From Acidobacteriota bacterium (GTDB taxonomy: Bacteria; Acidobacteriota; Terriglobia; Bryobacterales; Bryobacteraceae), in the NCBI GenBank assembly GCA_016871015.1, contig VFZX01000022.1, positions 1 through 43,084 of the forward strand: a DNA stretch of 43,084 bases. Direction: 5' to 3'. This document shows positions 141 to 14,703 of the stretch, one piece after another (position 1 is the first letter of the stretch; the number at the start of each line of letters is the position of its first letter). The notes below the pieces were generated by a model. It saw nothing but the letters and a program-made list of their open reading frames with translations, was not told the origin of the DNA and searched no databases. Both the position numbers and the translations under genes were made by a program.

Positions 141-536
141 TCAAACGCGGGACCGGCTGTCTACCTCAACCTGGTAGCCAGACGCGAGCCGGTTGGTTTC
201 GTTTGCCATCCCGGTGACGGCCATCATTTCGGCGAACATCTCCGGGGTCATTCCCGCCCTCCGTGCGTTGGCCGTGTGGGAGGCGATGCAGTAGCCGCAT
301 CCGTTGGTGACGCTGACCGCGATGTAGATCAGCTCCTTCGTCAACGGGTCCAGAGCACCCGGCGCCATAATCTGCTTGACGCTTTCCCAAGTTCGCTTCA
401 GCCCCGCCGGATCGTGTGCCAGCGCCTTCCAGAAATTGTTGATGTAGTCGGTGTTGCGCACCGCCATGATGTCGTCGTAAACGGCCCGTACTTCGGCCGG
501 GGCGTCGGCGTACTCAATCAGTCCGAACGTTGCCAT
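141..536 (-). CDS. carboxymuconolactone decarboxylase family (AhpD-like) protein
   Basis: A 131-residue single-domain protein of the AhpD/CMD family. The C-x2-C-x3-H signature is visible as CGYCIASH (Cys80, Cys83, His87), preceded by a glutamate (Glu68) at the usual proton-relay position. This arrangement is typical of the AhpD-type thiol peroxidase/reductase branch rather than true 4-carboxymuconolactone decarboxylase, which lacks the cysteine pair. A small alkyl-hydroperoxide reductase or redox partner role is therefore likely, in the cytoplasm. It overlaps the end of the upstream AGE-family epimerase by 23 bp, and both follow a redoxin-containing protein, so the three probably share a transcript. 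The exact substrate cannot be told from sequence. Confidence 0.85.
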   Translation of the reverse strand: MATFGLIEYADAPAEVRAVYDDIMAVRNTDYINNFWKALAHDPAGLKRTWESVKQIMAPGALDPLTKELIYIAVSVTNGCGYCIASHTANARRAGMTPEMFAEMMAVTGMANETNRLASGYQVEVDSRSRV

Positions 537-1671
537 GGGAAGCCTCCTCGATCCGCTGGATGCTGAACAGCAGTGCCCGCGGCACGTGGAAGCATCCCTT
601 ATAGTTGTTGCCCTTGAGCGTGTGGGTGGGTTTTCCGTACCGGTCGCAGTAGCCGTACCACTCGCCGTGTTCGCGATCCGGAAACGTGCGGTAGGTGTAG
701 GTGTGGACGCGTTCCAGCCACCGCAGCCACTTTGCCTCGCCCGTGAGCGTATAGGCGTAGACGAGTCCGTAGATCGCCTCGGTGTGCGGCCACCAGAGCT
801 TCAGGCTGGCCTCGAGCTGCAGACAAGGCCGGCCCTGGATATCCATGAAGTAGTGGAGCCCTTCGTAGTCCTCATCCCAGCCAAAGATCAGCGAGTTCTC
901 CATCAGTTGCAGGACCCTCTCTTGGGCGGCCGCGTTGGGATGGTGGCGCAGCGCGTGCAACATAAACCAGCAGACTTCGACCGCGTGTCCCGGGCAAAAC
1001 AGACGCCCCTCTGGAAGGTCGAGTAGATTCTCCCCGGCCGGCGGCACGTTCTCGATCAGGATTCCGCGATTGGGCTCGACGTGCCGGAAGGCGGCCTCCA
1101 TGCACTCGCGGATCACCTCCCCGGCCTCGAGTTCGAGCGCCATCGAGAGAACCACCATGATGTCGGCAAGCTGGCTGAACCGTGGCGACCCGGGAAGGCT
1201 GGGACGGCCGAGAAGTCCGGGCGCTGCGATCCAGCGCCGGATTGAGGCGAACAACGCTTCCGACTCTTCGCGCGCCCACTGTTCGCCGCTCGCCTTCGAG
1301 TATTCCAGCAGCCCGATCATCATGAACACCGCGCCGTAGGGCTTCCGCTGGAATGCAGCCGGAGCGCCTTCGCGGGTGAGCGCGAAGTAGCAGCGTCCTT
1401 CCGCGTCGCGCGCGTGGCGGCGAAGGAACAGGGCGCCCTCCCGGGCGGCGTCGAGCCACTCCTGGCGGCGCTCCACCTGGTTGTACAGGCGTGACAGCAT
1501 CCACACCTGGCGTCCGTTGAGCCAGACGTATTTGCGGGTGTCGTAGATGGTGCCGTCGCGATCGAGGCAGGTGAAGAAGCCGCCGTGTTCCTGGTCGATG
1601 GAGTGCCTCATCCAGAACGGGAGGACGGACTCAAACAAGTCCTGCCGGTAGGTGTCAGCGAAGGTCTTCAA
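514..1671 (-). CDS. AGE family sugar epimerase/isomerase
   Basis: About 385 residues, matching the N-acylglucosamine 2-epimerase (AGE) alpha6/alpha6-barrel family. Recognisable family stretches are GGFFTCLDRDG near the N-terminus, WMLSRLYN, PGHAVEVCWF, WWPHTEAIYG and HGEWYGY; the histidines in the PGH and PHTE motifs are the expected acid/base residues. Members epimerise or isomerise free sugars (N-acetylglucosamine/N-acetylmannosamine, cellobiose, mannose/fructose); sequence alone does not pick the substrate. I prefer the TTG start at 1671, which overlaps the TGA of the upstream gene as TTGA and gives the usual family N-terminus. An ATG at 1716 would add 15 basic residues and a 49-bp overlap. 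Translation is probably coupled to the upstream copper protein gene. Confidence 0.85.
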   Translation of the reverse strand: MKTFADTYRQDLFESVLPFWMRHSIDQEHGGFFTCLDRDGTIYDTRKYVWLNGRQVWMLSRLYNQVERRQEWLDAAREGALFLRRHARDAEGRCYFALTREGAPAAFQRKPYGAVFMMIGLLEYSKASGEQWAREESEALFASIRRWIAAPGLLGRPSLPGSPRFSQLADIMVVLSMALELEAGEVIRECMEAAFRHVEPNRGILIENVPPAGENLLDLPEGRLFCPGHAVEVCWFMLHALRHHPNAAAQERVLQLMENSLIFGWDEDYEGLHYFMDIQGRPCLQLEASLKLWWPHTEAIYGLVYAYTLTGEAKWLRWLERVHTYTYRTFPDREHGEWYGYCDRYGKPTHTLKGNNYKGCFHVPRALLFSIQRIEEASHGNVRTD

Positions 1672-3296
1672 CGCTTGAGTATACCGCCGCCCAGCTCGCG
1701 CATGATCTTTCCCCATAGCGACTGGCCAAGCTCGCGGGCGTCATCATCATTGGCTGGGATTACCTGGACGTGCAGGCCGGCCATCTCGTCCAACGAGCCG
1801 CCGCCCCAGGTGACCCTCCGTGGTGGATTGGATGGATTGCGTGGATTCGCGGCTGAGTTGTCGTAGAGGAACTCCATCTCGATGCGCGTCCCCGCGGGCA
1901 GCGTGAACGGGTGCTTGTAGCGGTAGTGGCGCTGCCAGTTGAAATCCCAGCCGCGGACCGTGATCAGTGGGATACGGCGGCCATCGGGGCGGATGGCGGT
2001 TCCGCGCATCTCCCGGCAGATGTAGTGGGCGTGCGGGATGATGCCGGTGACCTCCACTGGCACCGGCAGCGTGAAGTGGTCGCGGACAATGTAGCGCGCC
2101 TCGCCAGCAGGGATGTCGATGTTGCGGGATCCGAGGGCGACATCCATCATGCGCCGCGTGGGCGCAGTCTCCGTGAAGTACAGGGCCAGCTCGGACTGGT
2201 CGGTTTCGATTGTCCCGGTTGGATGATAGTGCAGTTGCAACACCAAATCCATGCCCGGCCGGAGCGTCACGGCGGTGAGCGGCGGGTACGAAGTGGGACC
2301 GAATCCCGGAGTCCAGCCGCCGAGCGAAGCGGATGGCAGGAATCCCGGGACCCCGAAGCAGGGATAGACTTCGCCATTGCGGCGGGCCGCGCCTGAGGCG
2401 TCGAGGAACATCAGGGCATGATGGACTGTCCTGCGGTTGCCCGGCTTGAACTCGAACGCGCGCACGTAGCGGGTCTGCTTGAGTCCGAGCGGGATGACCA
2501 CACAGGTGTAGATGTCCTCTCCCGTTGCGGGAACCTCGACGGGCTTCTGCATTCTGACCGTCCGGTCCGGCGCGCCGAGCTTCCAACCGGGCTGAAACTT
2601 CGGCGCCGCGGGCTCGATCCCAGGATCGCCGCGCGGAGCCCCATCACGCGCCCAGGATTCAAGCAGCCGGATCTCGCCGCCCGTCAGCCGGTGTGCTCCC
2701 TCGAATTCGAGCGGACCCGGATCTGCTTTCCAGGGCGGCATCAATCCGCGGCGGACCACTTCGGCGATCACGGCGGCGCGCGGCGCGGCATCGCCAAACG
2801 ACTCGAGGGCGAACGGCGCGTCTCCGCCAGTATGATGGCACGGGGTGCAATGACGGTAGAGCAGCGGCGCGGCGTGGCGCGCGAAGGTGACGCCGGTCGT
2901 GGCCTTGGCGGGTGGATAGGCAATCGCGCACCCGATGGCAGTGGTTTCACGCACCGGCGGTGACTTGCCCGCCAGCAGCGCCTCGATCGCCTCCCGCAGA
3001 TCGTGGCGCGTGGGCCGCCGGTGGACTCCAAGGGCTGGCATCCGGTCGTCGATCCGGCCGCGGTAGACGGCACTTCCCCGGGAACCGGTCACGACGGCCT
3101 GCGGAGTGACGCGTGCGCCGAGGCGGCTGGCGGTCCGGAGCCCCTCGGCGGTGTCCGTTGAGACCTGTTCAAACCGCACGCCGCGCGGCTGATATTCCGC
3201 TCTCAATTTCTCGAATTCCGGCTGGTACCGGTTCGACAATGGACAGGCGCCGCTCACCACCAGGTAGACGGTCAGCACGGAAGTCACAATTTCCAT
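1668..3296 (-). CDS. redoxin / cytochrome c-like / PHM-like copper monooxygenase fusion
   Basis: A 542-residue multidomain protein. Residues about 1-120 resemble a peroxiredoxin/redoxin-like domain with ACPLSN (Cys18) and the RIDDR...PTRHDL tail seen in that group. Residues about 135-225 look like a cytochrome c-type domain with one heme-attachment motif CTPCH (150-154) and MPPWK. Residues about 260-520 match ascorbate-dependent type II copper monooxygenases (PHM/DBH fold): His-His 293-294, HYH 357-359, HAH 423-425 and Met431 are plausible ligands of the two copper sites. Such fusions occur as uncharacterised proteins in Acidobacteria and Planctomycetes. No cleavable signal peptide is obvious, although residues 5-17 are hydrophobic; heme attachment would require export. 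It heads the minus-strand group with the epimerase and AhpD-like genes. The hydroxylated substrate is unknown. Confidence 0.8.
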   Translation of the reverse strand: MEIVTSVLTVYLVVSGACPLSNRYQPEFEKLRAEYQPRGVRFEQVSTDTAEGLRTASRLGARVTPQAVVTGSRGSAVYRGRIDDRMPALGVHRRPTRHDLREAIEALLAGKSPPVRETTAIGCAIAYPPAKATTGVTFARHAAPLLYRHCTPCHHTGGDAPFALESFGDAAPRAAVIAEVVRRGLMPPWKADPGPLEFEGAHRLTGGEIRLLESWARDGAPRGDPGIEPAAPKFQPGWKLGAPDRTVRMQKPVEVPATGEDIYTCVVIPLGLKQTRYVRAFEFKPGNRRTVHHALMFLDASGAARRNGEVYPCFGVPGFLPSASLGGWTPGFGPTSYPPLTAVTLRPGMDLVLQLHYHPTGTIETDQSELALYFTETAPTRRMMDVALGSRNIDIPAGEARYIVRDHFTLPVPVEVTGIIPHAHYICREMRGTAIRPDGRRIPLITVRGWDFNWQRHYRYKHPFTLPAGTRIEMEFLYDNSAANPRNPSNPPRRVTWGGGSLDEMAGLHVQVIPANDDDARELGQSLWGKIMRELGGGILKR

Positions 3297-3301
3297 ATAA
3301 T
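3296..3301 (+). promoter_or_regulatory. -10 box TATAAT for the 3312 gene, near-leaderless
   Basis: A perfect TATAAT lies 10 bp before the ATG at 3312, in the 15-bp gap between two divergent starts. Transcription would begin only about 4 nt before the ATG. No good -35 is seen at 17-bp spacing (TCAGCA-like at best). Confidence 0.4.
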
Positions 3302-3311
3302 CGCAACATCT

Positions 3312-4430
3312 ATGGCTACGGCATCTGTGCTGGAGCGTCCTGTAACGGGGAGCCCGGCCTTACCAGCTCTTGAACGCCTCCACTCGCTGGACGTGTTCCG
3401 GGGCCTGACGATGGTGTGGATGGTCTCCAACGGGTTTGGACTCCACTTCTTCAAGGATCATCCGGTATGGGGCTGGCTCGAGCGCCAGTTCACACACGCC
3501 GACTGGCACGGTTTCTACGCCTGGGACATGATCCAGCCGTTCTTCATGTTTATCGTTGGCGTGGCGATGCCGTTTTCCTTCGCGCGGCGGGACGTGGCCA
3601 ACGAGCCTTGGAGGACGCAGTTCCGGCACGTGCTGAAACGCGCGGCGCTGCTGATCGCCTTTGGGATCCTGGCGCGATCGATCGGAGCCGGAAAACCGAA
3701 TCTCGACCTGATCAACGTCCTCGCGCAAATCGCATTCACCTACACGGTCGCGTTCCTGCTGCTGCGCAAGCCGTGGACGGTCCAATTGGGTGCTTCCTTC
3801 GCACTACTGGCGGCGCACACTCTCTTCTACCTTTTTGCCACCGCGCCCGGCGTCACCGGACCTTGGGACAAGAACGCCAATATTGGCTGGTGGCTTGACG
3901 GCGCGGTCCTGGGAAAGCACTGGGGCGGCGGATACGCGACGGTCAACTGCGTTTCCTCGGCGGCGAACACGGTCTGGGGGATGATGGCGGGATTCGTGCT
4001 CATGTCCGCCCGGACCCCGGGTGAGAAGATCAAGCTGCTCGCTGGGGTTGGCGTGGCTGCGGTGGCCGCGGGAATGGCGCTGGATCCGCTGATCCCGAAC
4101 ATCAAGAAGATCTGGACCGCGTCGTTCGCCGTGTCGAGCGTAGGCTACACGCTGCTCGTGCTGGCACTGTTCTATTGGCTGATCGACATCAGGGGCTGGC
4201 GGCGCGGCACGGCGATTCTGGCCATGGTCGGCGCCAACTCAATCTTTATTTACCTCTTCCACGAGATCCTGCACCGCTGGATGCGGCAGACCGGACTCAC
4301 GTTCACCGGATGGGCGGTGAACCTGTGGGGGCCCTTTGGCAGCATGTTGAACGAGTGGCTCGTGATCGGATTCCAGATCTACGTCTGCTACTGGCTATAC
4401 CAACGCAGGATCTTCTTCAAGCTCTCATGA
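3312..4430 (+). CDS. heparan-alpha-glucosaminide N-acetyltransferase-like membrane protein (DUF5009/NagX type)
   Basis: A 372-residue polytopic membrane protein with about ten hydrophobic segments. The opening RLHSLDVFRGLTMVWMV-like stretch (here LHSLDVFRG, about residues 23-31) and the following HADWHGFYAWDMIQPFFMF block are the hallmarks of the HGSNAT/NagX family, which moves acetyl groups across a membrane to amino sugars or is annotated as DUF5009. The C-terminal FIYLFHEILHRW helix also fits. The gene ends in ATGA, overlapping the start of a LacI-type regulator, so the two are translationally coupled and probably belong to one carbohydrate-responsive unit. The transported or acetylated sugar is not known. 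Confidence 0.8.
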   Translation: MATASVLERPVTGSPALPALERLHSLDVFRGLTMVWMVSNGFGLHFFKDHPVWGWLERQFTHADWHGFYAWDMIQPFFMFIVGVAMPFSFARRDVANEPWRTQFRHVLKRAALLIAFGILARSIGAGKPNLDLINVLAQIAFTYTVAFLLLRKPWTVQLGASFALLAAHTLFYLFATAPGVTGPWDKNANIGWWLDGAVLGKHWGGGYATVNCVSSAANTVWGMMAGFVLMSARTPGEKIKLLAGVGVAAVAAGMALDPLIPNIKKIWTASFAVSSVGYTLLVLALFYWLIDIRGWRRGTAILAMVGANSIFIYLFHEILHRWMRQTGLTFTGWAVNLWGPFGSMLNEWLVIGFQIYVCYWLYQRRIFFKLS

Positions 4431-5431
4431 CTCCCGCCGAACAACAGAGGCGCACACCGACCATCTACGACGTCGCACGGCTCGCGGGCGTGGCGCCGTC
4501 CACCGTGTCGTCGGTGATCAACGGACGGGGAAGCGTGAGCGACGAACTCACCGTGCGGGTTCGCGACGCCGTCCGGGAGCTTTCCTACACCCCCAACGCC
4601 GTGGCGCAGAGCCTGCCGCGCCGCAAGACCCGCTCCGTTGGCCTGCTCATTCCCGACATCGGCAATCCGTTCTTCTCGAAAGTCGTGCGCGGCGTCGAGG
4701 ACCGGCTCTCCGACGCGGGCTACTCGGTGGTCCTGGGAGCTTCTTACAACCGGCCGGAGGAACAGGCCGTCTACGTGGACCTGTTCCGCGCGCAGCAGAC
4801 CGACGGACTGATCCTGTTCGCCTCGGGGGACTACGAGAGAATCCGCGCCTACAGTGACTCCGGGCGCCCCGTGGTGTTCTTGGGCCGCGAGCCATCGTTT
4901 TCCGCCGACGTCGTCACGGGCGACAATCGCGAGACCCTGCGGCTGGCGGTGGACTACCTCGCCGGAAAAGGCCATCGGGGCATCGCGATTCTATGCGGTC
5001 CGTTGTCGCTGAGCACCAATTCCGAGCGCGTTGCCGGATGGAAAAGCGCCCTGCGCGCCCATAGGCTTCCGGCGCCGGACCACCACATCGGGTCGGGCAA
5101 CTGGACAGCGGAGTCCGGCTACGAACTCACTCGCTACATGCTTCGCCTGGCGGACCCTCCCACCGCGCTGTTCGCGGGCAATTTTCTGATGCTGACCGGA
5201 GTGTTGCGGGCGCTGAAGGAGCGCGGAATCCGGTGTCCGGAACAGATCGAGGTGATGAGCTCGGACGACTCCGACTGGCTGGACGTGTTCTCCCCTGCGG
5301 TGTCGACCGTCGTGACTCCGAGCTACGAGATGGGCACCGCGGCCGCGGAACTGCTGCTGAAGCGCGTCAAGCAGCCCGGCCGCAAGCACCAGCGGATTGT
5401 GCTGGCGCCCAGGCTTCGTGTACGGGTTTAA
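4427..5431 (+). CDS. LacI family transcriptional regulator
   Basis: A 334-residue LacI/GalR regulator. The N-terminal helix-turn-helix is clear (PTIYDVARLAGVAPSTVSSV, about residues 11-30) with the hinge region ending QSLPRRKTRSVGLLIPDIGNPFF, followed by a periplasmic-binding-protein-like sensor domain to the end. The chosen ATG at 4427 overlaps the TGA of the preceding membrane acetyltransferase-like gene; the frame is open further upstream but that part is not protein-like in this family. It presumably controls its partner gene and perhaps neighbouring sugar genes such as the convergent PQQ sugar dehydrogenase, which ends 3 bp away. The effector sugar is unknown. Confidence 0.92.
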   Translation: MTPAEQQRRTPTIYDVARLAGVAPSTVSSVINGRGSVSDELTVRVRDAVRELSYTPNAVAQSLPRRKTRSVGLLIPDIGNPFFSKVVRGVEDRLSDAGYSVVLGASYNRPEEQAVYVDLFRAQQTDGLILFASGDYERIRAYSDSGRPVVFLGREPSFSADVVTGDNRETLRLAVDYLAGKGHRGIAILCGPLSLSTNSERVAGWKSALRAHRLPAPDHHIGSGNWTAESGYELTRYMLRLADPPTALFAGNFLMLTGVLRALKERGIRCPEQIEVMSSDDSDWLDVFSPAVSTVVTPSYEMGTAAAELLLKRVKQPGRKHQRIVLAPRLRVRV

Positions 5432-9037: not shown

Positions 9038-9949
9038 ATGATCCCCAACTGGCACGGCGTGTTCCCCGCCGCAACCACACAGTTCCGTGACGACGAATCC
9101 ATTGACATTGCCGCCACGCTTCGGCACCTCGAGGTGATGATCCGCGCGGGCATTCACGGCGTCATCATGCTCGGCACCGTCGGCGAGAACATGTCGCAGT
9201 CAATCGGCGAGAAGGTCTCGGTTCTCGAAGCCACCGTTGCCGCCGTCAACAAGCGGATTCCCGTGCTTACGGGCGTCGCCGAGACCACCACCCGCGAAGC
9301 TTGCCGGCTCGCTGAAGCGGCGGCCAAAGCGGGTGTCGACGGATTGATGGTGCTCCCCGCGATGGTTTACAAGTCCGACCCCCGTGAGACCATCCTCCAT
9401 TTCCGCACCGTCGCCCGCGCCACCGGACTTCCCATCATGGTCTACAACAATCCGCCCGCCTATTCGGTCGACATCACGCCGCCGATGTTCGCCGAACTCG
9501 CGGACGAACCCACACTGGTGGCGATCAAGGAGTCATCTGAAAATCCGCGCCGTATCACCGACATCGTGAACCTGTGCGGGGACCGCTACATCCTGTTTTG
9601 CGGCGTCGACGACCTTGTGATGGAAGGAGTCCTGCTCGGCGCGGTGGGCTGGGTGTCAGGCCTGGTGAACGCTTTCCCGGAAGAAAACCGCCTGCTGTGG
9701 GATCTGATGATGGCGGGCAACTGGGAAGAGGCCCGCCGCGTCTACCGCTGGTACATGCCGCTGCTGCATCTGGACACGCACGTGAAGCTCGTCCAGTACA
9801 TCAAGCTCGCGATGACGGAGACCGGACTCGGATCGGAGAAGACCCGCGCGCCGCGTCTTCCCCTAGCCGGTGAGGAGCGCGAGCGCGTCCTGCGGATCAT
9901 CCGCCAGGCGATCGCCACCAAACCTGTATGCCGCGCCGCATCCGCGTAG
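9038..9949 (+). CDS. DapA-family lyase, probable pyrroline-4-hydroxy-2-carboxylate deaminase
   Basis: A 303-residue class I aldolase-fold protein of the dihydrodipicolinate synthase/N-acetylneuraminate lyase family. The Schiff-base lysine is Lys164 in VAIKESS and the conserved tyrosine is Tyr136 in MVYNNPP; the substrate loop LGTVGEN (45-51) replaces the GTTGE of true DapA. Lying first in a cluster with a 4-hydroxyproline epimerase and a multi-subunit dehydrogenase, it most likely converts delta1-pyrroline-4-hydroxy-2-carboxylate to 2-oxoglutarate semialdehyde and ammonia (LhpC role in pseudomonads). This role is inferred from context; other DapA-family lyases cannot be excluded by sequence alone. 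It overlaps the epimerase gene by 22 bp. Confidence 0.85.
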
Positions 9950-10869
9950 TCGACTCGCACACCGGCGGCGAGCCCACGCGCATCATCGTGAGCGGCGGAC
10001 CGCAGCTCGGCGGCGGCACCGTTGCTGACCGGCACGAAGCGTTCCAGCGCGATTTTGACCAGTTCCGTTCCGCGGTGGTGAACGAGCCACGGGGTTCCGA
10101 CGCAATGGTGGGAGCGCTGCTGTGCGAGCCCTCCGACTCTTCCTGCTCGGTGGGAGTGATCTTCTTCAACAACGTCGGATTCCTGAATATGTGCGGCCAT
10201 GGCACCATCGGGCTCATGGTGACGCTCGCCCATTTGGGACGCCTCACACCGGGAGTCCACCGGATTGAAACGCCAGTGGGCGTGGTGTCCGCGGAACTAC
10301 ACGAAGGCGGCCGCGTCACGCTGGACAATGTCCCCAGCTACCGCCACGCGCAGGGAGTCCGGATTGATGTTCCCGGCCATGGCGAAGTGGCCGGCGACAT
10401 CGCCTGGGGCGGCAACTGGTTCTTCCTCGTCGAGGGATCTCCGGCCGAGCTCGATCTGCGCAATCTCGACGCGCTGACCGCTCACACCTGGGCGATCCGC
10501 CAGGCGATCGGGCGGGAAGGCATCACCGGCGCCAACGGCGGCGAGATCGACCACATCGAGCTGTTCGGCCCCGCGCGCAACCCCGCCGCGCATTCGCGCA
10601 ACTTCGTCCTGTGTCCCGGCAAAGCATACGACCGCTCACCCTGCGGCACCGGGACCAGCGCCAAACTCGCATGCCTCTATGCGGCGGGCAAGCTGGCCGT
10701 GGGTGACGTCTGGATCCAGGAAAGCATCGTCGGCAGCACGTTTGAGGGACGCGTCGCCCTCGACAACGGCCGCATCATCCCGCGCATCACAGGCTCGGCC
10801 TACGTCAATGCCGAAGCGGATTTGATCCTCGACGATTCGGATCCGTTCTGCTGGGGGATCCGGGCGTGA
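9928..10869 (+). CDS. 4-hydroxyproline 2-epimerase (proline racemase family)
   Basis: A 313-residue proline-racemase-family enzyme. Both catalytic cysteines are present: Cys89 in MCGHGTIG and Cys239 in [11 protein letters not shown]. Having both separates it from trans-3-hydroxyproline dehydratases, in which one is replaced. It would convert trans-4-hydroxy-L-proline to cis-4-hydroxy-D-proline in the cytoplasm, the first step of bacterial hydroxyproline breakdown (LhpA role). The N-terminal [14 protein letters not shown] block is family-typical. The gene overlaps the upstream lyase by 22 bp and the downstream FAD gene by GTGA, so it is tightly coupled to both. Proline racemase activity is the main alternative; the dehydrogenase neighbours favour hydroxyproline. 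Confidence 0.9.
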
Positions 10870-11954
10870 CCGACGCCGTGATCGTGGGCGCGGGAATCGT
10901 GGGAGCTGCTTGCGCCGACGCGCTGGCCGATGAAGGATTGAGCGTAACGGTGGTTGACTCCGGGATCCCAGGCGGTGGCACGACAGCCGGCGGCATGGGA
11001 CACCTCACCGTGATGGATGACTCCGAGGCGCAGTTCGCGCTCACGCGCTACTCGGTAGACCTGTGGCGTTCGATGGACCTGCCCCCACGCGCCGAGTTCC
11101 TGCCCTGCGGAACTCTGTGGGTGGCGGCGGATGACGAGGAGATGGCGGAAGTCCGGCGGAAGCAGGCGTTCCTCTCCAGCCGCGTTGTCGCGTCCGAGGT
11201 GCTGGACTCGCGCGCGTTAGCCGAAGCCGAGCCCAATCTCCGCCGGGGCCTTGCCGGAGCGCTCTTTGTGCCCTGCGACGCGATCCTCTATCAGCCGCTC
11301 ACCACCCGCCACCTGTTGCGGCGCGCGAAGTTCGTTTCAGGCGAAGCCATCCGGCTGCGGGATGACGGAGTGGACCTGCGCGATGGCTCGCGCCTTTCAG
11401 CGGCGGTGACCGTGAACGCGGCTGGGGTGGGCGCACCCAAGCTCACCGCCGGACTCGACATCCAGCCGCGTAAGGGACATCTGTTGATCACGGACCGCTA
11501 TCCCGGATTCGTGCGGCACGCTCTGGTCGAGCTTGGATACCTGAAGAACGCGCACGCAAGCCGCGCCGACTCAGTGGCGTTCAACGTCCAGCCACGTGTC
11601 ACCGGACAGGTGCTCATCGGATCGTCGCGGCAGTTGGGCGCCACCAGTCCGGACATCGAGCCGCGGATGCTGGGCTGGATGCTCCAGCGAGCCGCAAGCT
11701 ACCTGCCTGACGCCCCACGCCTCAACGGGATCCGCACGTGGACCGGACTCCGGCCCTGCACGCCCGACAACCTCCCCTACATCGGACTGGTCCCAGGTAC
11801 GCGGTCCACCTATGTCGCGGCGGGACACGAGGGGCTGGGCATCACCTCCGCGACCGGCACCGCGAAGCTGATCGCGAGCCTGGCCACGGGACGCAAACCT
11901 CCGATCCCAGTTGAGCCCTATGCGCTGTCGCGCGAAATGGTGGAGCATGTTTAA
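10866..11954 (+). CDS. FAD-dependent D-amino acid dehydrogenase subunit (LhpB/HcnC-like)
   Basis: A 362-residue DAO-family flavoprotein starting with GTG inside the GTGA overlap with the epimerase stop. The dinucleotide-binding motif [14 protein letters not shown] lies at residues 6-19, and the C-terminus has the family [14 protein letters not shown] and [16 protein letters not shown] blocks. Its place beside a small 2Fe-2S protein and a second FAD protein matches the three-part Hcn/LhpBEF-type D-hydroxyproline dehydrogenase, where this subunit oxidises cis-4-hydroxy-D-proline. The product would be delta1-pyrroline-4-hydroxy-2-carboxylate. It overlaps the ferredoxin-like gene by 8 bp. Confidence 0.87.
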
Positions 11955-12156
11955 GTTCCGCGTGGACGGCCGCGAGATCACGGCACAGACCGGCACCTCG
12001 GTCGCCGCGGCGATGCTCAACGCCGGAATCCACACCGCGGCTCCGCTGTGCGGAATGGGAGTCTGCATGCAGTGCCGGATCACGGTGGACGGCGTTGCCC
12101 ATGTCCGCTCGTGCCAGACTCAGTGCCGCGAAGGAATGGAGGTCCGGACCCGGTGA
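11947..12156 (+). CDS. small 2Fe-2S ferredoxin-like subunit (LhpF/HcnA-like)
   Basis: A 69-residue protein starting at ATG 11947 (MFKFRVDG). It has a plant-type ferredoxin core, C-x4-C-x2-C followed by C about 11 residues later (LCGMGVCMQC...VRSC), as in the HcnA/SoxA-like small subunits. It would pass electrons between the two flavoprotein subunits encoded on either side. An ATG 36 bp upstream in frame exists but lies inside the preceding gene and gives no family-like residues. It overlaps its neighbours by 8 and 4 bp (GTGA). Confidence 0.87.
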   Translation: MFKFRVDGREITAQTGTSVAAAMLNAGIHTAAPLCGMGVCMQCRITVDGVAHVRSCQTQCREGMEVRTR

Positions 12157-13304
12157 GGCGCGTCGTGGTCGTGGGAGCGGGTCCGGCGGGAATGGCGGCG
12201 GCGGTTTGCGCCGCGGAGGGCGGACGGCAGGTCACGCTCATTGACGACAATCCAGAGCCGGGCGGCCAGATCTGGCGCGGTGAAACAGAGGGAGCCTGGT
12301 TCGAGCGCCTCCAACGCGTCCGGGTGGCGCGGCTTCCGAGTGCGCGCGTCGTTACCGGCGATCCGGATGCACGCGCGCTCACCGTGGAGCTTCCGGACCG
12401 CACTGTGACGGTCACCTGGGATGACCTGATCCTGGCGACGGGCGCGCGCGAGCGGTTCCTGCCGTTCCCCGGCTGGACCCTGCCCGGAGTCCTGGGAGCG
12501 GGGGGGATTCAGGCGCTCGTGAAGTCGGGGCTGGATGTCCGGGGGAAGCGGGTGCTGGTGGCGGGCACGGGTCCGCTGCTGTTAGCCGTGGCGGCTCTGT
12601 TGCGCAGTCGGGGTGCGAACGTGCTCGGAGTCGCCGAGCAGGCCTCCGGAGCGAGCCTGCGGAAGTTCGCGTTTTCTCTGCCTTGGCGGAAGCTGTGGCA
12701 AGGATTCGAGCTGCGGCGCGGGATCCGGTATTGGACAAGCTGCTGGGTCGAGTCCGCTGAGGGCCGGGATCGCGTGGAGCGCGTGCGCTTGCATGGGCGC
12801 GGCGTGGTCGAGTGCGACTACGTGGCTGTGGGATACGGGCTGGTTCCAAACACCGAGCTAGCCCAGATTCTGCGCGGCGCGGGAACGTTGGTGGGCGAAT
12901 GTAACGGAGTCGGGGGCGTCGAGAAATCGCTGATCGAGGGACAGATCGCCGGACACGCGGCGGCGGGGAATGCCGCCGGGGCAGCGCGGCTGCAACCGGA
13001 ACTGGACAGAGCCCGCAAGTTTGCCGCAAGCCTCGACAAGGCCTTCGCGCTCAGGCCGGAATTGCGCCACCTCGCCCAAGCCGAAACACTGGTCTGCCGC
13101 TGCGAATCGGTGACGCACGGGGACTTGAAGGAATTCGGTTCGTGGCGCGAGGCCAAGCTTTACGGACGCTGCGGCATGGGTCCCTGCCAGGGCCGCGTGT
13201 GCGGACCCGCGGCCGAATTCCTGTACGGATGGCAGCCTTCGTCAGTCCGCCCGCCGGTGCTGCCGGCGCGGGTCGGGTCGCTACTGGGAGAACAACATGA
13301 GTGA
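12153..13304 (+). CDS. FAD/NAD(P)-binding oxidoreductase subunit with BFD-like 2Fe-2S domain (LhpE/HcnB-like)
   Basis: A 383-residue pyridine nucleotide-disulphide oxidoreductase-like protein. It starts with GTG at 12153 (GTGA overlap), giving VRRVVVVGAGPAGMAAAV with the FAD motif at once; a second dinucleotide site is GKRVLVAGTGPLLL near residue 130. The C-terminus (about 310-355) carries a bacterioferredoxin-associated-ferredoxin-like cluster: CRCES followed by CGMGPCQGRVCG. This layout is that of HcnB-type subunits of heteromeric amino acid dehydrogenases. With the two preceding genes it would form the D-hydroxyproline dehydrogenase complex that feeds electrons to the respiratory chain. 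It overlaps the permease gene by 8 bp. Confidence 0.87.
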   Translation: MRRVVVVGAGPAGMAAAVCAAEGGRQVTLIDDNPEPGGQIWRGETEGAWFERLQRVRVARLPSARVVTGDPDARALTVELPDRTVTVTWDDLILATGARERFLPFPGWTLPGVLGAGGIQALVKSGLDVRGKRVLVAGTGPLLLAVAALLRSRGANVLGVAEQASGASLRKFAFSLPWRKLWQGFELRRGIRYWTSCWVESAEGRDRVERVRLHGRGVVECDYVAVGYGLVPNTELAQILRGAGTLVGECNGVGGVEKSLIEGQIAGHAAAGNAAGAARLQPELDRARKFAASLDKAFALRPELRHLAQAETLVCRCESVTHGDLKEFGSWREAKLYGRCGMGPCQGRVCGPAAEFLYGWQPSSVRPPVLPARVGSLLGEQHE

Positions 13305-14703
13305 ATTCCGCCGCGAGTTGGGATTGTACGACTCGGTGATGGTGGTCGCCGGAGCGATGATCGGCTCGGGGATCTTCATTGTCTCTGCCGATATGGCACG
13401 GCTGCTCGGCAGTCCGGGATGGCTGATCGCGGCCTGGGCGCTGACGGGAGTGCTGACGGTGGCGGCTGCCCTGTCCTATGGGGAACTGGCCGCGATGATG
13501 CCGGAAGCGGGCGGCATGTACGTCTACCTGCGGCGCGCGTTTTCGCCGCTTTGGGGATTCCTCTACGGCTGGACTCTGTTCACCGTGATCCAGACCGGCA
13601 CGATCGCGGCGGTCGCGGTGGGGTTCGCGCGGTTTGCGGGCGTGTTCGCGCCCTCGATTTCCGAGAGCAACTACCTGGTCGCGCCGGTGCACTTGCCCGG
13701 TGGATACGCGGTGTCGCTGTCGGTGGCCCAGTTGGTGGCTATCGTCGTCATCGTGCTGCTGTCGTGGACCAACAGCCGCGGTGTTCAATACGGCAAGCTG
13801 GTGCAGAACCTGTTTACTACGGTGAAGATCGGAAGTCTGCTCGTGCTGATCGCCGTGGGACTGCTGGTAGGACGCAACGAGCGGGCGATGACCGCCAACT
13901 TCACGGATCCCTGGGCTGGAGCGGTGCCCGCGCTGTTCGTAGCGGTGTGCATCGCTCAGGTTGGCTCGCTGTTCTCGGCCGATTCCTGGCACGACATCAC
14001 GTTCGCGGCGGGCGAAGTGAAGGATCCGAGCCGGATTTTGCCGCTGTCGCTCTTGATTGGCACAGTCCTGGTGGTGGGACTCTATACGCTCGCCAACGTG
14101 GCCTACCTTGCCGTGCTACCCCTGGAGGCGATTCAGAACGCGCCATCCGACCGCGTGGCGACCGCCATGCTCACCGCGATCTCGCCAGACATCGGCGCAG
14201 CGCTCATGGCCGCCGCGATCATGGTCTCGACGTTCGGGTGCGTCAACGGACTCGTGCTGGCGGGCCCCCGGGTCTACTTCGCAATGGCGCGGGACCGGCT
14301 GTTCTTCCCAAAGGCGGGAGAGCTGAATGCCGCGCGGGTGCCGGGATGGTCCGTGTGGGCGCAGGGATTGTGGTCGGCGCTGCTGGTGCTGCCGCGGACC
14401 TATGATTCCACGACCGGGAAGTATGGAAACTTGTACAGCAACCTGCTGGACTACGTGGTGTCCGCCGCGCTGCTGTTCTACATCCTCACCATCGCCGCTG
14501 TGTTCCGGCTGAGGGTGAAGGAGCCCGATGCGCCGCGGCCCTACCGGGCATGGGGTTATCCAGTGCTGCCGGTTTTGTACATCGCGGGAGCGTCCGCGAT
14601 CCTGGTCTGCTTGTTCCTGTACCGGGCATCGACCACCTGGCCGGGATTGATCATCGTCCTGCTGGGGGTTCCGGTGTTCGGCTGGCTGAACAAGAGGGGA
14701 TAA
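13297..14703 (+). CDS. APC family amino acid permease, probable hydroxyproline transporter
   Basis: A 468-residue inner-membrane protein with about twelve hydrophobic helices. The APC superfamily signature GAMIGSGIFIVSADMARLLG lies at about residues 20-39, and the middle helices carry SADSWHDITFAAGEVKDPSR, typical of the LAT/amino acid transporter group. Being the last gene of the operon, with an 8-bp overlap to the dehydrogenase gene, it probably imports the amino acid that the upstream enzymes degrade. Substrate assignment is from context only. No clear terminator follows; the next gene, zwf, starts 36 bp later. Confidence 0.85.
   Translation: MSEFRRELGLYDSVMVVAGAMIGSGIFIVSADMARLLGSPGWLIAAWALTGVLTVAAALSYGELAAMMPEAGGMYVYLRRAFSPLWGFLYGWTLFTVIQTGTIAAVAVGFARFAGVFAPSISESNYLVAPVHLPGGYAVSLSVAQLVAIVVIVLLSWTNSRGVQYGKLVQNLFTTVKIGSLLVLIAVGLLVGRNERAMTANFTDPWAGAVPALFVAVCIAQVGSLFSADSWHDITFAAGEVKDPSRILPLSLLIGTVLVVGLYTLANVAYLAVLPLEAIQNAPSDRVATAMLTAISPDIGAALMAAAIMVSTFGCVNGLVLAGPRVYFAMARDRLFFPKAGELNAARVPGWSVWAQGLWSALLVLPRTYDSTTGKYGNLYSNLLDYVVSAALLFYILTIAAVFRLRVKEPDAPRPYRAWGYPVLPVLYIAGASAILVCLFLYRASTTWPGLIIVLLGVPVFGWLNKRG

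Follow-up and report, generated by a model that had tools for sequence, protein, structure and literature searches.

A candidate PHM-type two-copper oxygenase with a fused cytochrome c domain and an eroded redoxin in an Acidobacteriota bacterium

Analysis of a 43,084-nucleotide stretch from a soil-type Acidobacteriota bacterium of the Bryobacteraceae (GenBank assembly GCA_016871015.1, contig VFZX01000022.1, positions 1 to 43,084; the whole stretch is called the window below) revealed a gene on the minus strand (1668..3296; codon r begins at nucleotide 3296-3(r-1)) whose 542-residue product joins a shortened redoxin, a cytochrome c-like domain and a region resembling peptidylglycine hydroxylating monooxygenase (PHM). 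The protein is probably a two-copper oxygenase of the type of PHM and dopamine beta-hydroxylase (DBH), with a fused monoheme cytochrome c as its electron donor and an eroding redoxin as an accessory part. A preliminary description of the sequence had proposed a single three-domain chain in which electrons pass from thiols or heme to a copper oxygenase. The reading frame is real, and its strand, which had been left unstated, is the minus strand (3296..1668). Translation can begin no earlier than the ATG at 3296: no ATG, GTG or TTG is found in the 21 codons back to the in-frame upstream stop.

The oxygenase region covers residues 240-531 (1704..2579, on the minus strand like all features of this gene given below). 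A template-free AlphaFold2 model of the protein had a mean predicted local distance difference test score (pLDDT) of 94.0 and a predicted template modelling score of 0.87, with the first ten residues less certain (72). The model matched PHM in Foldseek (E 2.2e-16), and superposition of residues 240-531 on PHM (3mic) gave a VIA Z of 22.4 over 270 residues at 3.4 Å, so that the PHM fold is borne out by structure prediction. A profile of the PHM part built from 76 sequences recovered rat PHM (E 9.5e-13) and human DBH (E 5.8e-7) in hmmsearch, and a profile of 105 sequences matched, within a single chain, both thioredoxin-like structures (at best 1.8e-20) and rat PHM (5.4e-13).

Conservation of the copper ligands was assessed in an alignment of 129 rows (the window protein, its relatives and paralogues, duplicates dropped), which includes close relatives, so that the rows are not independent. 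Six positions align with the copper ligands of PHM: His292 and His293 (2418..2423; PHM H107 and H108; 129/129 rows), His356 (2229..2231; H172; 129/129), His422 and His424 (2025..2033; H242 and H244; 129/129 and 128/129) and Met505 within a common DEM motif (1782..1784; M314; 129/129). PDB titles give the numbers H107, H108, H172 and M314; H242 and H244 are the numbers we take the other two ligands to have. On this alignment the CuH site would be formed by H292, H293 and H356, and the CuM site by H422, H424 and M505. Every motif listed in the preliminary description is present in the chain (C18, CTPCH at 150-154, HH, HYH and HAH); C18 was numbered correctly, and the copper motifs were numbered one too high (they are HH 292-293, HYH 356-358, HAH 422-424 and Met 430). 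Among its candidate ligands, the HH pair, the first histidine of HYH and HAH hold, but two residues had to be dropped. At the position of the methionine given as 431 (M430), 48 of 129 rows have Met, as do 46 of 76 rows of a closer set, and the PHM alignment gives M505 instead as the sixth ligand. The histidine given as 359 (H358) is His in 38 of 129 rows and 45 of 76 in the closer set, which leaves H356 as the only ligand in HYH.

The position of PHM Q170 is occupied by Q354 in the window protein (Q in 61/76 rows). The positions that we take to be the peptide-carboxylate anchors of PHM (R240, N316 and Y318) correspond to I420, G507 and H509; in the 76 rows N is found at 507 in three and Y at 509 in two, and at 420 the eight commonest letters, which cover 65 rows, do not include R. 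Because these substrate anchors are absent, peptidylglycine is not the expected substrate. The catalytic centre is thus PHM-like, whereas the substrate site is not, since the ligands and the Q170 position are kept and the anchors are replaced and variable. PHM (1opm, 3mic) and the window protein therefore share the fold over residues 240-531, the six ligand positions, the DEM motif and the Q170 position, but differ in the three anchor residues, in the fused cytochrome c and redoxin, in the bacterial origin and in sequence (about 20% identity). DBH (4zel) likewise shares the copper-oxygenase fold (Z 21.2) and is reached by the sequence profile (the 5.8e-7 above), but where it carries a DOMON domain, the window protein has a redoxin and a heme domain of the c type. 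The absence of the PHM anchors would also fit a PHM-like half devoted to copper storage, sensing or peroxide chemistry, with no substrate oxygenation, and so would the presence of up to 19 matches per genome, which suggests diverse roles. Both copper sites are nevertheless complete and the Q170 position is mostly kept, which storage alone would not need, and we regard this explanation as very unlikely.

Between the redoxin and the oxygenase lies a monoheme cytochrome c-like domain (residues 131-240, 2577..2906), which has a sub-threshold match to Pfam Cytochrome_CBB3 (E 0.0058). Its heme c motif, C150-T-P-C153-H154 (2835..2849), occurs in 128 of 129 rows, with a gap in the other, and Met186 of an MPPW motif (2739..2741), the putative distal heme ligand, is present in 129/129. 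As the CxxCH motif and this candidate ligand are essentially invariant, the fused domain is the likely electron donor. The window genome also has cytochrome c assembly genes (three matches over the cut-off). When folded alone, the domain had a pLDDT of 87, and its best PDB match was cytochrome PccH (4rlr; VIA Z 6.8 over 75 residues), followed by hydrazine synthase (HZS; Z 4.3). The same two were the top matches of the sequence profile of the domain, namely the cytochrome c part of HZS alpha (5c2v, E 0.0018) and PccH (E 0.021). The similarity to both is weak, and unlike the window protein neither holds an oxygenase by title. Profile, structure model and invariant ligands together back the earlier proposal of a PHM-like copper monooxygenase and a cytochrome c in one chain. 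The heme-to-copper route that was suggested to replace ascorbate is contradicted by none of these results and appears plausible.

Several observations weigh against a fused heme-copper oxygenase. The window protein alone lies under every Pfam cut-off (Cu2_monooxygen 15.2 bits against a cut-off of 30, no Cu2_monoox_C match) and matches no NCBIfam model. The Pfam shortfall is a matter of recognition threshold and not a biological feature; when the 105 aligned members, redoxin-only ones included, were searched singly (E <= 0.01), Cu2_monoox_C was matched by 32, Cu2_monooxygen by 18 and Cytochrome_CBB3 by 49, and in the window genome four of the five Cu2_monoox_C matches, which are four paralogues, were above the Pfam cut-off. 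The heme domain alone gave no Foldseek match at E <= 0.001, and its cytochrome fold match is the modest one to PccH. Finally, an ordinary signal peptide, judged by eye, is not apparent in any of the three genus members (the window protein and its two congeners), which is awkward for a c-type cytochrome, as this kind of protein receives its heme outside the cytosol and has to be exported.

The three genus members begin directly at the first strand of the redoxin fold (MEIVTSVLTVYLVVSGAC, MIAGITVYLFLSTAC and MTPALTVYLFLASGC), and none has K or R before Cys18. The hydrophobicity of this strand is 2.1-2.5 in the genus, within the range of 1.1-3.4 of 65 full-length redoxins. Of 75 full-length redoxins, 60 have D or E directly ahead of Cys18; the genus has A, A and G there, and the equally short redoxin of genome G259 has D. 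In both congeners (G001 and G002) a 4-nucleotide overlap joins the start codon to the upstream gene (a DHDPS-family gene by Pfam in G002, a homologue in G001), which supports that start. About 21 of the 23 frames inspected by eye open with a hydrophobic leader, and the two without one are the congeners L009 and L010. In one of the alignments some rows begin a few codons ahead of the likely start. The genus protein might therefore have lost its signal peptide and remain in the cytosol as a relic or repurposed protein, not a working heme-copper oxygenase, as the 4-nucleotide overlap, the opening of the chain at the first strand and the lack of K/R would allow. We consider this unlikely, because both congeners (63% and 61% identical) keep all named heme and copper residues, as selection for a loaded enzyme predicts, and because other fused relatives (L143-L145, L147 and L148) likewise have short leaders without K/R. 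The hydrophobic first strand may serve at the same time as a weak signal, perhaps with Cys18 lipidated; the alternative is a cytosolic protein that is not loaded.

The redoxin (thioredoxin-fold) domain covers residues 1-130 (2907..3296). It was the sole clear domain in a single-sequence search (2ywi, E 3.3e-10), phmmer linked it to 2ywi and 2cvb, and residues 4-130 superpose on 3u5r with a VIA Z of 13.4 (124 residues, 2.6 Å). Two cysteines are conserved, Cys18 in a CPLS motif with no CxxC (3243..3245; C in 78 of 80 rows, two gaps) and Cys123 in a GC motif (2928..2930; 79 of 80 rows, one gap). The three thioredoxin-like proteins share the fold with the window protein (Z 13.1-13.4), and their second conserved cysteine near the C-terminus aligns; the window redoxin differs in that it is without the N-terminal part and has lost about 23 internal residues. 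The C18-to-C123 span is 106 residues, and its median over 77 rows, short ones included, is 129; the AhpC-TSA model, matched by 38 of 105 aligned members at E <= 0.01, does not match the window protein. While 2ywi and 2cvb have Cys-Asn-His-Cys at the active site, the window protein has SGACPLS with a single cysteine and so lacks the CxxC active site of ResA/TlpA-type thiol-disulfide reductases; a cysteine three positions before Cys18 is found in none of the 75 full-length redoxins. The redoxin is genuine but eroded in the genus of the window. Shrinking redoxins form a series within one family, with Cys-to-Cys spans of 93-116 residues in L001, L009, L010, L141, L142, L146 and L148 against 128-129 in L022 and L147, and the redoxin of L146 (G259) is short although its sister L022 is full-length.

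The redoxin also comes and goes among close relatives. It is fused in 12 of the 30 closest family loci, and in the other 18 none was found in the gene or the fetched flank, which was at most 1.5 kb, sometimes ended by a contig end, and read more widely for four loci (L132-L135). With residues 1-149 (the redoxin and the start of the heme domain) as a query, 17 of 237 family genomes gave matches at E <= 1e-15, 12 of them in a fused gene. In a 54-row tree, two changes are required to account for the shortened form; the state "none" is not reliable for row L031, which is ended by a contig end, and the state of a fused full-length redoxin takes in L148 (intermediate, span 116) and L143-L145 (span not measured by the pattern). 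The redoxin is thus judged helpful but not essential, which argues against it as the main electron donor. The preliminary description had electrons start from thiols, and a main route from Cys18 through the heme to the coppers would agree with the conservation of Cys18 and Cys123 and with a redoxin fused (8) or encoded next to the oxygenase on the same strand (56) in 64 of the best 80 of 173 loci described below. However, this part of the proposal fares poorly: a compulsory thiol-to-copper route is unlikely because no redoxin was found in 18 of the 30 closest loci while the heme and copper residues stay, the shortened form takes two changes on the tree, no CxxC is present, and a one-electron heme is in our judgement an unlikely match for a dithiol. 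We hold such a relay to be improbable.

A scan of genome collections yielded 173 relatives, the best 80 of which come from Acidobacteria, Armatimonadetes, Planctomycetes, Verrucomicrobia, Bacteroidetes and one Phenylobacterium (phyla taken from record titles, many of metagenome assemblies). Of these best 80 loci, 8 have the redoxin fused and 56 have it on the same strand within 300 nucleotides; in 1 it sits nearby on the other strand, in 3 it is more distant, in 11 none was found, and 1 was left without a score (L081, where both parts are present but missed by the scoring cut-off). The share of redoxin is inflated, since the query contained the redoxin. Distances were taken between stop-to-stop frames, and upstream or downstream labels are unreliable where frames overlap. 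The redoxin lies beside or is fused to the cytochrome-PHM gene in six phyla and in both gene orders. Because this pairing recurs across phyla in both orders, redoxin and cytochrome-PHM form a real two-gene module despite the inflated share. In-frame TGAs at some loci were taken as stops between or after separate redoxin genes rather than selenocysteine, not each of them having been read. Many rows with invariant heme and copper residues have no redoxin in the same frame. Ten contigs of the window genome carry PHM-part matches (a total of 14 if pieces and a single redoxin-only match are counted), and 56 of the 61 related genomes searched, its own included, have at least one match, with up to 19 in one genome. 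At L055, L072, L056, L060 and other loci, the cytochrome-PHM frames reach 600-800 residues and have a long C-terminal extension beyond the PHM match.

Instead of taking part in turnover, the redoxin could be a dedicated maturation factor that keeps the thiols of CxxCH or the copper site reduced, or aids copper loading. In several phyla, separate redoxin genes with hydrophobic leaders are paired to cytochrome-PHM genes. The model of ResA, a heme-maturation reductase, is matched at E <= 0.001 by 17 of the 105 aligned proteins, and a maturation role accounts for the pairing without strict dependence. On the other hand, the CxxC that ResA-type enzymes use is absent here, and many orthologues have no redoxin. 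As the redoxin's exclusive task, maturation is a tentative but serious candidate, somewhat short of an even chance.

Among the neighbours of these genes, 92 loci were compared. Two clusters of outer-membrane receptors, present at 17 and 13 loci, and one of SusD-like proteins, present at 10, were recurrent; clustering was single-linkage, the second largest cluster was taken as antisense shadow frames, and the Pfam check covered two loci, L107 and L057. Genes for such receptors or SusD-like proteins lie near redoxin and cytochrome-PHM genes at L088, L098, L100, L107, L108, L126, L054 and L057, and at the last two a receptor-like gene sits between two PHM frames. These neighbours hint at a role in handling imported organic matter.

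The gene in the window is followed by an N-acylglucosamine 2-epimerase-like gene (514-1716, minus strand), which overlaps its 3' end and is itself overlapped by an AhpD-like gene (141-536, minus strand); a NagX-like acyltransferase gene starts at 3312 in the divergent direction. An AhpD-like protein and a sugar epimerase had been named as companions, and both genes do adjoin the PHM-like gene, but the pairing is not seen elsewhere: neither neighbour was found by tblastn (E <= 1e-8) in any other of the 140 loci, including the downstream flanks of both congeners. A partnership with these genes was therefore rejected, as they are private to the window genome among these loci. At locus L135 the orthologue has a NagX-like gene (42% identity) roughly 5 kb away, which speaks against a wholly private neighbourhood. 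Outside the PHM-like gene, the tblastx comparison of loci gave mostly background.

Two further gene groups were observed in the window. At 514-5431, the N-acylglucosamine 2-epimerase-like gene, the NagX-like acetyltransferase gene and a LacI-type regulator cluster around the oxygenase gene, which suggests amino-sugar use. Genes at 9038-14703 on the plus strand for a DHDPS-family protein, a 4-hydroxyproline epimerase, flavin adenine dinucleotide-dependent oxidoreductases and an amino-acid transporter look like an operon for 4-hydroxyproline catabolism. The epimerase scores 442.2 bits against a cut-off of 442 in one NCBIfam model and 435.1, under the cut-off of 450, in another. The DHDPS gene of this group (9038-9949) and the DHDPS-family gene upstream of the congeners' oxygenase are 27% identical over 154 residues, and orthology is not claimed.

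For the two-copper oxygenase with a fused cytochrome c, the following course of catalysis is proposed. The cytochrome c domain (C150-C153-H154, distal M186) would itself be reduced by a periplasmic or respiratory donor and would most likely supply the reducing equivalents to the copper sites. In PHM, CuM binds O2 and CuH relays an electron; by analogy, CuM of the window protein would bind O2 and hydroxylate a substrate, and CuH would relay the electron. The redoxin would act as an accessory thiol protein in folding, in heme or copper-site maturation, or in protection. Its probable origin is a neighbouring gene that became fused to this one, and in the genus of the window it is now eroding.

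To our knowledge, work on PHM and DBH has dealt almost entirely with eukaryotes; the animal enzymes, to which the window protein is related, produce amidated hormones and noradrenaline. In the literature searched, most subscription journals and preprints being outside its reach, no bacterial protein joining cytochrome or redoxin to PHM was found described. The table of a 2020 review lists PHM and DBM under eukaryotes only (PMC7435645). The copper-oxygenase fold is already known and Pfam domain models already match bacterial proteins; what appears to be new is the form with a fused candidate heme c donor.

If the proposed function is correct, the reduction of each copper, and the donor for it, becomes testable within a single polypeptide, and Acidobacteria, Planctomycetes and Bacteroidetes gain a new oxidative activity. 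More speculatively, and with less than even confidence, the family may be a large bacterial branch of PHM-type enzymes (at least six phyla, up to 19 matches per genome) that works free of ascorbate, in which a built-in cytochrome c would pass electrons of the respiratory chain to CuH and a redoxin partner of its own would mature or guard the enzyme. Neighbouring outer-membrane transporters may move the substrates or products of some members, and in the genus of the window the first strand of the shrunken redoxin and Cys18 may serve as an export or lipidation signal.

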